From a bacterium (GTDB lineage: Bacteria > Patescibacteriota > UBA1384 > JAGGWG01), in NCBI GenBank assembly GCA_021157605.1, contig JAGGWG010000011.1:1-50437 (forward strand): a stretch of 50,437 bases of DNA, read 5' to 3'. Of the stretch, positions 1,401 through 50,422 are shown in pieces. The position numbers and the translations under genes were made by a program. Every line of letters begins with the position of its first letter. Position 1 is the first letter of the stretch. Below the pieces are notes generated by a model. That model made no database searches and was not told where the DNA came from. It saw only the letters and a program-made list of their open reading frames with translations.

Positions 1401-1488
1401 TGGCGGAGGGGGTGGGAGTCGAACCCACAATCCCCTAAAGGGGAGCCGCTTTTCGAGAGCGGTGCCTTACCATTCAGCACACCCCTCC
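1401..1488 (-). tRNA. tRNA-Ser (anticodon CGA)
   Basis: Complete class II tRNA. The acceptor arm pairs GGAGGGG with CCCCUCC, discriminator is G, and CCA is encoded. The anticodon stem CCGCT/AGCGG holds loop CTCGAAA, giving CGA (reads UCG). A long variable arm and a normal T arm are present. A palindrome-filled relic of its 5' part lies 72 bp upstream. The 15 bp 5' of the gene recur upstream of tRNA-Ser(GCT) at the right end of the window. Confidence 0.95.
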
Positions 1489-1560
1489 ATTAAGCTGTTA
1501 ATCTAGTTAAAGAGCAGGAAATTGACCTAGAGGAGTTAAATACGGCAGAGTCTAAAAGCT

Positions 1561-1649
1561 CACCTTACTCCCGCCGTTGGCGGGACAAGACACCGCCTTT
1601 GGCGGGACAAGCCTGCCTGACGGCAGTCAGGCACTCGGGACACCCCTCC
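1561..1649 (-). pseudogene. Relic of tRNA-Ser 5' end with inserted palindromes
   Basis: Read on the minus strand, the first 10 nt (GGAGGGGTGT, from 1649) match tRNA-Ser. About 71 nt of GC-rich palindromes follow (1569-1639), and then GTAAGG (1563-1568), which continues the tRNA D-loop sequence. The tRNA match then stops. The inserted block replaces the middle of the D-loop. It holds three stem units: one built on CCTGACGGCAGTCAGG and two built on CCCGCC/GGCGG. The tRNA match is short, so taken alone the assignment is only moderate; the same layout at Leu and fMet strengthens it. Confidence 0.65.
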
Positions 1650-1743
1650 AAAAACCAAACTTTTACCTTGTACTATTTTGGCAACATTAACCTTTAAACA
1701 CAAGACACAAAAGGCTTGAGAAAAACCCGAGCCTTGAGAACAA

Positions 1744-33914: not shown

Positions 33915-33970
33915 GGAGCGGTAGTTCAGTTGGATAGAACGTCCCGACCTATGCGTCGGGAAGGTCGCGA
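33915..33970 (+). pseudogene. 5' relic of tRNA-Asp with palindrome in place of the anticodon arm
   Basis: GGAGCGG, TAGTTCAGTTGGATAGAACG and AGGTCGCG match the acceptor, D arm and variable loop of the intact tRNA-Asp at 34014. Between them the 17-nt anticodon stem-loop is replaced by the 20-bp palindrome TCCCGACCTATGCGTCGGGA (33942-33961). The match ends inside the T stem. A matching 3' relic lies beyond the intact gene at 34376. Confidence 0.85.
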
Positions 33971-34013: not shown

Positions 34014-34090
34014 GGGGCGGTAGTTCAGTTGGATAGAACGCCGGCCTGTCACGCCGGAGGTCGCGGGTTCAAATCCCGTCCGCCCCGCCA
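34014..34090 (+). tRNA. tRNA-Asp (anticodon GTC)
   Basis: Acceptor GGGGCGG/CCGCCCC, discriminator G, CCA encoded. Anticodon stem CCGGC/GCCGG with loop CTGTCAC gives GTC. Intact, and flanked by two relics of itself and a GIY-YIG remnant. Confidence 0.95.
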
Positions 34091-34107
34091 TTTTCTACCA
34101 TTCCATC

Positions 34108-34368
34108 ATGTAGGGTGGCTGGCTTTACATTCTTTACAGTCAATCGCGCAATCAGTACTACATTGGAAGCACTACTGATTTGAAACGCCGCCTAAAAGAA
34201 CACAAGAAGGGGAAACACCGCTTTTCTAAAACTCTGGGGAAATTTAATCTAGTCTTTGTTCAGCACTTTAAAAACATTAGAATCGCGCGCCGAAAAGAGA
34301 AACAGCTAAAAAAATGGAAACGCCGAGATTATATTGAGAAAATCATCAGGAAAGGAAAAATCCACTGA
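34108..34368 (+). pseudogene. GIY-YIG endonuclease, start disrupted
   Basis: The frame GGWLYILYSQSRNQYYIGSTTDLKRRLKEHKKG...EKQLKKWKRR is a complete single-domain GIY-YIG (UvrC N-terminal fold) protein of about 84 aa: WLYIL and YYIG strands, catalytic-type R and a KEKQLKKWKR helix. The only upstream ATG (34108) is followed at once by TAG in the same frame, so the full domain has no normal start codon; the first usable start is a TTG at 34180, which loses both signature strands. Probably an inactivated mobile endonuclease. It lies between intact tRNA-Asp and its 3' relic; a sister gene sits at tRNA-fMet (42931). Confidence 0.75.
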
Positions 34369-34375
34369 AAAGCTT

Positions 34376-34442
34376 TTCAGTTAGATAGAACGTCCCGACC
34401 TATGCGTCGGGAAGGTCGCGGGTTCAAATCCCGTCCGCCCCG
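34376..34442 (+). pseudogene. 3' relic of tRNA-Asp with the same palindrome
   Basis: Begins in the D arm (TTCAGTTAGATAGAACG), carries TCCCGACCTATGCGTCGGGA at 34393-34412 instead of the anticodon arm, and keeps a perfect variable loop, T arm and CCGCCCCG acceptor end. The first 45 bp (34376-34420) repeat 33925-33969 with one mismatch, so the intact tRNA plus GIY-YIG segment is flanked by 45-bp direct repeats. It cannot be a working tRNA: no acceptor 5' strand and an anticodon arm of wrong length. Confidence 0.85.
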
Positions 34443-34504
34443 AAGTAAAGGATTGAAAATTTAGTGAACGCGTAATAAACTGAAAATAGAAAATAAGCCC
34501 ATAA

Positions 34505-42303: not shown

Positions 42304-42750
42304 ATGGAAAAGAGAGAGATTCTGCAAGAGCAAAAAGCTCTACAGCTACTTTCCCTGTTGCAAACAGAGGGACCGTTGTCAGAGGAAGGACTCAGAAGGA
42401 TATTGGCCAGCGAAAATATCTGTCCCCTGGGAGAAAAAGGAAATAATATCTTTACTGAGCTTGTTAATACTCTTCGGGGAAATGATCTGATCTCTATCTC
42501 GACGGAGGGCATCTTCAGCATCAGCAGAAATGGCCGCATTTTTCTAGAAGAAAACGATTTCATCCTAGCTCGAGTTATCTCTCCTTTTAAAGAACAAATT
42601 GAAGAACAGATTCAAAGAATCCAAGCCATAATTGAACTTCTTTCAGAACAAATAGAAATAGCTCAAGAAATAGCTGAAAAATTAGGTAAAGACCGCGAGA
42701 GACTTGAGGAGACCCTCTCTACTCTTGAAGAAGTGCAAAGCCGGCTCTAA
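42304..42750 (+). CDS. Small winged-helix-like protein with coiled coil
   Basis: 148 aa. Residues about 8-82 read as a winged helix (ALQLLSLLQTEGPLSEEGLRRIL..., then a wing-like ISISTEGIFSISRNGRIFLEE); residues about 95-148 form a long coiled coil (ISPFKEQIEEQIQRIQAIIELLSEQIEIAQEIAEKL). No family recognised. It has a near-perfect SD (AAAAGGAGGT, 7 nt spacing), a strong promoter with an operator and its own terminator, so it is highly expressed under control, perhaps its own. No cysteine-rich or enzymatic motif. Confidence 0.75.
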   Translation: MEKREILQEQKALQLLSLLQTEGPLSEEGLRRILASENICPLGEKGNNIFTELVNTLRGNDLISISTEGIFSISRNGRIFLEENDFILARVISPFKEQIEEQIQRIQAIIELLSEQIEIAQEIAEKLGKDRERLEETLSTLEEVQSRL

Positions 42751-42760
42751 GAACTCCCTA

Positions 42761-42787
42761 TCCCCTGCCCTATCGGCAGGGGATTTT
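42761..42787 (+). terminator. Rho-independent terminator
   Basis: Nine-pair stem TCCCCTGCC/GGCAGGGGA with a 5-nt loop, followed by TTTT, 11 bp after the stop of the winged-helix gene. Confidence 0.88.
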
Positions 42788-42895: not shown

Positions 42896-42967
42896 TTGCG
42901 GGGGAAGGATTTGAACCTCCGACCTCCGGGTTATGAGCCCGGCGAGCTACCACTGCTCCACCCCGCA
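42896..42967 (-). tRNA. Initiator tRNA-fMet (anticodon CAT)
   Basis: Close to bacterial initiators (GGGGTGGAGCAG..., loop CTCATAA, three G-C pairs GGG/CCC in the anticodon stem, T arm GGAGG). Discriminator A; no CCA. The first pair is U1-A72 instead of the usual C1-A72 mismatch. Its 5' half overlaps the end of the GIY-YIG gene on the same strand and is duplicated at 43221-43279. Confidence 0.93.
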
Positions 42968-43218
42968 TTAATCTTTGGCCTCTTGCCCCTGTAAATCTGC
43001 TCTCTATAATAACCCGACTTTAACTTTTTTTCCAGTTTTCTTGCCTCTCGCCGCGAGCAACAACTCCAGTAAGCTATTAGTTTGTAAGGAGCAAAAGCCT
43101 TGGTAGATTTATTCTGCTCAGAATTATGCTCTTTTATTCTTCTTGCAAGATTGTTGGTCAAACCAATATAAAAATATTTCTTCTTTATGCTTTTTAAAAT
43201 ATACACAAAATAACGCAT
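42931..43218 (-). CDS. Single-domain GIY-YIG endonuclease inserted at tRNA-fMet
   Basis: 95 aa from the ATG at 43218: MRYFVYILKSIKKKYFYIGLTNNLARRIKEHN, with the VYI and YIG strands, catalytic-type R26 and a basic SRREARKLEKKLKSG helix. Single-domain GIY-YIG proteins of this type cut DNA and are related to homing endonucleases. The frame continues through the 5' flank and D arm of intact tRNA-fMet and ends at a TAA made of the last anticodon base plus the two following A's, so its last 12-13 residues are tRNA-encoded. The longer frame to 43263 runs through the palindrome and is rejected. Both ends abut copies of the fMet 5' half. Confidence 0.85.
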   Translation of the reverse strand: MRYFVYILKSIKKKYFYIGLTNNLARRIKEHNSEQNKSTKAFAPYKLIAYWSCCSRREARKLEKKLKSGYYREQIYRGKRPKINAGWSSGSSPGS

Positions 43219-43220
43219 AA

Positions 43221-43279
43221 TTATGAGCCCGGCGAGCCCTGCCTGCCGGCAGGCAGGTACCACTCTGCTCCACCCCGCA
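43221..43279 (-). pseudogene. 5' relic of tRNA-fMet with a palindrome in the D-loop
   Basis: Reading from 43279, TGCGGGGTGGAGCAG then (AG)TGGTA, a 20-bp palindrome CCTGCCTGCCGGCAGGCAGG (43238-43257), then GCTCGCCGGGCTCATAA, identical to the intact gene up to the end of the anticodon loop. After that the GIY-YIG start region follows at once. The 10 bp 5' of both copies (CAAAGATTAA) also match. Confidence 0.9.
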
Positions 43280-49969: not shown

Positions 49970-50053
49970 TGCCCGGGGAGGGAGTCGAACCCTCAAGGGT
50001 TTAGGCCCACTGGATCCTAAGTCCAGCGCGTCTACCAATTCCGCCACCCGGGC
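49970..50053 (-). tRNA. tRNA-Leu (anticodon TAG)
   Basis: Class II tRNA: acceptor GCCCGGG/CCCGGGC, discriminator A, anticodon stem CTGGA/TCCAG with loop CTTAGGA, long variable arm, T arm GAGGG/CCCTC. No CCA. A 5' relic with palindromes lies 66 bp upstream. Confidence 0.95.
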
Positions 50054-50119: not shown

Positions 50120-50199
50120 GCGCGTCTACCCCTGCCTGCCCTGACTGCCGTCAGGCAGGCGGCAGGCAACCCCGCTGCAGGCGCGGGCGCCACCCGGGC
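50120..50199 (-). pseudogene. 5' relic of tRNA-Leu with palindromes in the D-loop
   Basis: From 50199, GCCCGGGTGGCG matches tRNA-Leu, then about 57 bp of GC-rich palindromic sequence (50131-50187), then GGTAGACGCGC, which continues the tRNA up to the anticodon stem, where the match stops. The insert contains the same 21-bp core (50140-50160) as the tRNA-Ser relic (1611-1631), in inverse orientation relative to the window. Confidence 0.85.
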
Positions 50200-50336: not shown

Positions 50337-50422
50337 CGGAGGGGGCGGGACTCGAACCCACAAGCCCGCAAAGCGGGCTACGCCTTAGCAGGGCGTTGCC
50401 TTACCATTCGGCACACCCCTCC
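50337..50422 (-). tRNA. tRNA-Ser (anticodon GCT)
   Basis: Class II: acceptor GGAGGGG/CCCCTCC, discriminator G, anticodon stem ACGCC/GGCGT with loop CTGCTAA, long GC-rich variable arm. No CCA. Its 5' 18 nt and the 15-bp 5' flank repeat those of tRNA-Ser(CGA) at 1471-1503 with one mismatch. Confidence 0.95.

Follow-up and report, generated by a model that had tools for sequence, protein, structure and literature searches.

Hairpin-bearing tRNA gene relics accompany single-domain GIY-YIG nuclease genes in bacteria: a candidate homing-type element with a replacement tRNA

The stretch of DNA analysed here (the window; 50,437 nucleotides) is one contig, C11, of a 575-kb bacterial genome, G000, that is estimated to be about 96% complete. 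Its complete genes for tRNA-Ser(cga), tRNA-Asp(gtc), tRNA-fMet and tRNA-Leu(tag) are accompanied by broken copies of the same genes in which short hairpins are set (Table 1). Reading frames for single-domain GIY-YIG nucleases are found at tRNA-Asp and tRNA-fMet, both flanked by a tRNA relic and a complete tRNA. The frame at tRNA-fMet extends into the complete tRNA gene, which lies 3' of it, has the same 5' flank as the relic and provides the stop codon of the nuclease gene with the TAA of its anticodon loop. The frame at tRNA-Asp, when followed from 34093 to 34368, holds an in-frame TAG and lacks an ATG ahead of its catalytic domain; perhaps its 5' end has decayed or another start is used.

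Table 1. Broken and complete tRNA genes, hairpins and GIY-YIG reading frames in the window.
Feature	Position	Strand	Remarks
tRNA-Ser 5' relic	1541..1650	-	upstream of complete tRNA-Ser(cga); GGAGGGGTGTCCCGAGTG(hairpins)GTAAGGTGAGC...; 1632-1650 matches tRNA-Ser positions 1-19
P3 hairpin copy 1 (TCCCGCCGTTGGCGGGA)	1569..1585 (palindrome 1571..1589)	.	in tRNA-Ser relic
P3 hairpin copy 2 (CCGCCTTTGGCGGG)	1593..1606 (palindrome 1593..1611)	.	in tRNA-Ser relic
P1 hairpin	1611..1633	.	in tRNA-Ser relic
Complete tRNA-Ser(cga)	1401..1488	-	
tRNA-Asp relic A	33915..33969	+	5' part, P2 in place of anticodon arm; 45-bp direct repeat with relic B
P2 copy 1	33942..33961	.	in tRNA-Asp relic A
Complete tRNA-Asp(gtc)	34014..34090	+	
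Asp-linked GIY-YIG reading frame	34114..34368	+	84 aa; has the catalytic residues; in-frame TAG not followed by an ATG
tRNA-Asp relic B	34376..34443	+	partial 5' part, P2, full 3' half
P2 copy 2	34393..34412	.	in tRNA-Asp relic B
tRNA-fMet 5' relic	43221..43279	-	gene start to anticodon loop (CTCATAA)
P1 hairpin of fMet relic	43238..43257	.	at D-loop 3' border
Single-domain GIY-YIG gene at fMet	42931..43218	-	begins just past relic anticodon loop
Complete tRNA-fMet	42896..42967	-	
tRNA-Leu(tag) 5' relic	50120..50199	-	GCCCGGGTGGCG(hairpins)GGTAGACGCGC
Nested hairpins with P1 core	50131..50187	.	shared 21 bp at 50140-50160; in tRNA-Leu(tag) relic
Complete tRNA-Leu(tag)	49970..50053	-	

The hairpins of these relics include three types, P1, P2 and P3. 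The 21-bp core of P1 at 1611-1631 returns, inverted and without a mismatch, at 50140-50160, and the palindrome of the tRNA-fMet relic (CCTGCCTGCCGGCAGGCAGG) is a variant of it, both as the first-pass annotation had stated. P2 (TCCCGACCTATGCGTCGGGA) was claimed to occur twice at tRNA-Asp and has only these two occurrences, but the copies are not independent because they are parts of one 45-bp direct repeat that flanks the complete tRNA-Asp and the GIY-YIG frame. Likewise, both annotated copies of P3 (CCGCC-NNN-GGCGGGACAAG) were found at tRNA-Ser, but in a single relic. A strict scan of the 50-kb window for hairpins (G+C-rich arms of at least 7, loops of 3-8) yielded seven, against about 0.1 in Markov sequences, and five of the seven are situated in tRNA relics. 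The other two are the variable arm of a tRNA-Ser at 50363 and a G+C-rich hairpin at 42760-42784, which is followed by TTTAATAA, stands after an ORF at 42304-42750 and is probably a plain terminator.

Our genome-wide statements rely on pattern searches and on inspected stretches around tRNA genes. With up to two mismatches allowed, the P1 core occupies five places in G000, three within the window (at 1611 in tRNA-Ser, at 43238 in tRNA-fMet and at 50140 in tRNA-Leu(tag)) and one each at loci L001 (tRNA-Leu(gag)) and L004 (5' end of 16S rRNA). All five are broken copies of RNA genes (four tRNA, one 16S rRNA), each upstream of a complete copy. The claim that the hairpins are confined to tRNA relics consequently describes the window copies, but P1 in this genome reaches beyond tRNA. 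The 16S relic (L004:1430-1640, contig C16) comprises the first ~46 nucleotides of 16S rRNA and holds two hairpins, P1 and one other, the latter with TTTTT after it; the functional 16S gene lies directly downstream. Scanning of stretches around other tRNA genes added one further hairpin relic, that of tRNA-Glu(ctc), with a different hairpin; there, CCGTAAATTG-TTTT-CAATTTACGG is placed between the D and anticodon arms, and the complete gene follows downstream (L175:5503-5587, contig C2). Seven RNA genes in G000 have hairpin relics, and five of them (tRNA-Ser, two tRNA-Leu, tRNA-Glu and 16S) are without a nuclease gene; a search for nuclease remnants at these five relics found none.

The genome has three matches to PF01541, two of them the single-domain proteins encoded in the window, while the third, in a 424-residue frame, is taken as UvrC; the GIY-YIG domain is recognised with E values of 1e-14 to 1e-17. 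The GIY-YIG frames stand alone. Rfam detected only tRNAs and no intron in the window, and a mobile group I intron was rejected on this ground. GTDB contigs scanned with a two-protein profile gave 80 loci of one subfamily, chosen by similarity; these relatives of one window protein span about 30 named phyla and dozens of species. Residues Y6, Y17, G19, R27 and H31 of the catalytic site are present in all 80 proteins, and E63 in 79. A tRNA gene lies within 300 bp of the nuclease gene in 71 of the 80 loci; the 82 tRNAs within this distance, which represent 17 types, are without exception co-oriented with it, and tRNA density amounts to 1.77/kb within 300 bp versus 0-0.21/kb farther out. In a wider PF01541 sample, the best 30 loci in relatives, 13 have a tRNA within 300 bp, again always co-oriented (13/13). 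A partial copy of the same tRNA is present across the nuclease gene in 49 of the 71 loci, compared with 1.0% in a mis-paired control in which tRNAs were tested against the flanks of other loci. The presumed link between the hairpins and single-domain GIY-YIG genes is thereby far stronger than had been supposed.

Most of these loci stem from metagenome-assembled genomes; isolates of Flavobacterium, Halpernia, Leeuwenhoekiella and Salegentibacter also show the tRNA linkage. An origin from phages or plasmids was discarded, as the nuclease found no match in plasmids and 11 weak ones in phages; the elements sampled here are chromosomal. At one Omnitrophota locus (L306:1966-2501), the GIY-YIG gene is positioned downstream of a tmRNA gene, and from this case the targets may include other tRNA-like RNAs.

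Relics beside nuclease genes contain 42 inserts of at least 9 nucleotides, with lengths that cluster at 19-21 and 31-32 nucleotides; 35 of these inserts, in 29 loci, fold at -7 kcal/mol or better. By hand count, 14 of the 28 inserts in 5' relics fall on the 3' border of the D-loop (index 21-23), where P1 also resides in the fMet relic of the window. P1 itself recurs in relics of Omnitrophota, Bacteroidota, Chlorobiota and several Patescibacteria, and upstream of the nuclease gene its density is 1.75/kb within 100 bp (14 places), 0.13/kb at 100-200 bp and zero beyond. Since the end points of the relics are spread, from about 21 to 84, the anticodon loop would be a tendency and not a fixed site. 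In a locus of Desulfobacteraceae (L269), tRNA-Asp relics carry a P2-like anticodon hairpin (TCCCGCATATCATGCGGGA), and its nuclease is among those nearest to the Asp copy of the window in the tree.

Such regularities could mean that the hairpins are selected and not mobile, serving to disarm the relic either by denying it a tRNA-like fold in a shared transcript or by blocking its re-cutting by the nuclease. The tRNA-Glu relics of G027 and L310, whose hairpins agree in position and form and differ in stem sequence, would be well accommodated by selection, as would the single D-loop border that received half of the counted inserts and the constant co-orientation of nuclease gene and tRNA. Nevertheless, the presence of identical P1 in distant phyla at unrelated sites argues for copying, and many hairpin-free relics persist; we regard selection as a rather unlikely explanation.

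Evidence for movement of the nuclease gene comes from two congeneric genomes. In G027 (L225), tRNA-Lys and a spacer are followed by a tRNA-Glu 5' half that has a double hairpin in its anticodon loop, then by the GIY-YIG gene and finally by a complete tRNA-Glu, whose acceptor stem is different. G017, in which PF01541 has no match, also possesses tRNA-Lys and a similar spacer; its single tRNA-Glu there is intact and at the 5' end resembles the G027 relic. The two appear to represent an empty and a filled site, one clean pair, and with this empty allele and their preponderance at tRNA genes, the nuclease genes have the marks of a free-standing homing endonuclease. In G045 (L215, identical to the Berkelbacteria locus L239), the halves of a native tRNA-Leu, with P1-type hairpins in the D, anticodon and T arms, flank the GIY-YIG gene together with a complete but different, foreign tRNA-Leu(caa). 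Two different tRNA-Ser genes, one in G011 and the other in G023, are accompanied by similar elements (86% DNA identity); as one of the two contigs breaks off at this position, the case is no more than suggestive. The DNA that adjoins this element (L211:1890-2190) matches a repeat found over 100 times in G011 and 200 times in G023, often with a shared core of about 45 nucleotides. Comparison with G001, a genome of the same family, as a means of distinguishing native from foreign tRNAs was given up, as the sequences are too diverged.

On the nuclease tree, which is poorly resolved (80 columns, four starred branches), tRNA type changes 32 times versus 53.8 times with shuffled labels (0 of 200 shuffles), and 28 versus 41.1 times with the Bacteroidota left out. 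Host phylum changes 39 times versus 43.1, and tRNA type is hence the trait that the tree follows more. Homing on specific targets, combined with transfer between phyla, would produce such sorting. These data also bear on another account of the relics, ordinary tandem duplication of tRNA genes followed by decay, with the hairpins as terminators or products of chance and the GIY-YIG genes lodged in safe sites. Tandem tRNA copies are common, and G001 holds a hairpin-free 3' fragment of tRNA-Thr. Many loci, moreover, show stretches of tens of bases without a difference between relic and complete tRNA; simple tandem duplication would produce the same, and the case for an element is weakened by it. 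However, duplication and decay would account neither for seven hairpins where 0.1 are expected nor for the repeated position of the inserts, and identical P1 in several phyla, a nuclease tree sorted by tRNA type and the empty site speak against it as well, so that we consider it highly improbable.

Among 99 related genomes searched with CCTGCCTGNCGGCAG at no more than one mismatch, 57 contain P1, with 419 matches versus 17 for the reversed pattern used as a control, which bears out the annotated view of P1 as a dispersed hairpin family. A preference for tRNA genes does not hold as a rule. The genome-wide distance check that had been proposed finds all five places of G000 in RNA-gene relics, but in the relatives 12 of 110 places, against 2.7% expected, have a tRNA no more than 150 bp away and the other 98 do not; P1 is a dispersed hairpin that is enriched near tRNAs, not a tRNA-only family. 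Many of its copies in the relatives nest in other palindromes or in dispersed repeats, and the nesting in palindromes suggests a preference for hairpin loops. Dispersal and nesting would suit a sequence of events in which the hairpins came first: REP/RPE-like palindromes would enter tRNA and rRNA genes, the survivors would be those cells with a prior duplication, and the GIY-YIG genes would be incidental. The five hairpin relics of G000 without a nuclease gene point in the same direction. Yet relics with no detected hairpin adjoin nuclease genes at L244, L249, L253, L262 and L285, and this order of events would explain neither the tRNA linkage of 71 of the 80 loci nor the full co-orientation, nor yet why G027 and G045 have a replacement tRNA; that hairpins led the way is, in our estimation, improbable.

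Rickettsia palindromic elements are insertions of roughly 100-150 bp in Rickettsia genes, and identity with them was dismissed, as the inserts described here are mostly 15-42 nucleotides long and lie in dead tRNA copies. The suggested likeness to REP sequences did not hold up either. P1 shares with REP sequences and their RAYT genes the format of a dispersed palindrome of 20-40 bp (PMC3733652) but lacks their GTAG/CGTC tag: on 144 flank sides beside P1, GTAG was found twice and CGTC not at all, with about 2.8 expected by chance, which rules out a tagged REP. No match to the RAYT family (Y1_Tnp, PF01797) was found in the 96% complete G000, and with a weak correlation elsewhere (rho 0.31), RAYT was rejected as the mover of the hairpins. 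GIY-YIG proteins, which the first-pass annotation had proposed as movers acting in trans, are putative at most in this role. Their copy number correlates with the P1 count over 61 genomes (rho 0.51), which is not decisive since GIY-YIG and Y1 counts correlate as well (0.52), and G035 has 16 P1 matches with a single PF01541 match, whose weak score points to UvrC. As makers of the relics, and not as movers of the hairpins, the GIY-YIG proteins would be better cast.

Collectively, we favor, at a probability of roughly 0.68, a free-standing element of the homing type, by which a tRNA gene is broken and a replacement provided, with hairpins collecting later in the dead halves. This element would consist essentially of one free-standing GIY-YIG nuclease gene plus tRNA sequence. 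Its nuclease would cut a tRNA gene of the preferred type, often near the anticodon loop, and repair from element-bearing DNA would then insert the nuclease gene in the same orientation and leave on one side a complete tRNA that could serve as a rescue. This tRNA would be a different one of the same type, or one made whole again by a repeat of half the gene. The outcome of this step is directly visible in the single pair of empty and filled sites, and the 49 loci with a partial copy show it as a sequence pattern. The displaced half would remain as a relic, whose loop borders short G+C-rich hairpins, P1 included, would enter without harm; that they arrived after the relic was formed is suggested by the relics without detected hairpins that adjoin nuclease genes. 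Subsequently, the nuclease gene could decay and be lost, so that relic, hairpins and a good tRNA remain, the end state that we propose for tRNA-Ser, the two tRNA-Leu, tRNA-Glu and 16S of G000. This loss is the weakest part of the model because no nuclease remnant was found at these five relics, and the five duplications, being without nuclease gene or trace, might have another origin.

The element would act as a natural cleave-and-rescue system on genes that the cell cannot lose. A more far-reaching version strikes us as doubtful: a widespread element whose nuclease, about 80 residues long, destroys an essential tRNA gene and comes with the replacement, spreads between phyla while keeping its specificity for a tRNA, and is also the source of the hairpins, by creating or inserting them. 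Annotated single-domain GIY-YIG genes that have no assigned role occur in many bacterial genomes, and the subfamily sampled here appears, from its genomic surroundings, to consist of tRNA parasites. If this is true, an element of about 300 bp is able to enter an essential RNA gene and leave the cell alive, as a natural counterpart of engineered cleave-and-rescue drives, and it would offer a route for horizontal tRNA gene replacement and an origin for hairpin-bearing tRNA relics.

Our searches of the open-access literature brought up no description of such elements from the chromosomes of bacteria. Elements with tyrosine integrases also insert at tRNA genes and leave a functional tRNA, whereas in the loci that we inspected the interval between relic and tRNA holds a GIY-YIG gene only; by reading, this is the case for the fMet and Asp loci, and identity with integrase elements was rejected. 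The ORF360 insertion at atp6 in Allomyces mitochondria combines a nuclease gene with a duplicated part of the host gene, and Allomyces also has mobile G+C-rich single and double hairpins. It resembles our loci in both respects and differs from them in affecting a protein gene of an organelle, in contrast to bacterial tRNA genes across many phyla. These double-hairpin elements are cited in passages of PMC2800124.

The closest known system is SegB of the T-even phages T4 and T6, described in passages of PMC13096335 as a free-standing GIY-YIG homing endonuclease of tRNA regions, for which cutting within tRNA-containing sequence has been implicated (PMC13096335, citing Brok-Volchanskaya 2008). It has in common with the elements studied here the free-standing nuclease and a strong co-localisation with many tRNA types, but it is described from phage genomes, and the passages on SegB contain nothing on tRNA relics, on hairpins or on a tRNA that acts as replacement (PMC13096335). 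With regard to the hairpins, the GC clusters of yeast mitochondria (PMC4478555) and the RHE of sponges (PMC2800124) are, according to the passages on them, likewise short mobile palindromes that merge and occur also in rRNA genes. The yeast clusters differ by their flanking AG/ACT duplications (PMC4478555), and a tie to a nuclease gene and a tRNA relic is not mentioned in these passages of either source (PMC4478555, PMC2800124). As the hairpins share features with mobile palindromes of organelles, an old puzzle could become testable in cultured bacteria, for instance in Flavobacterium.
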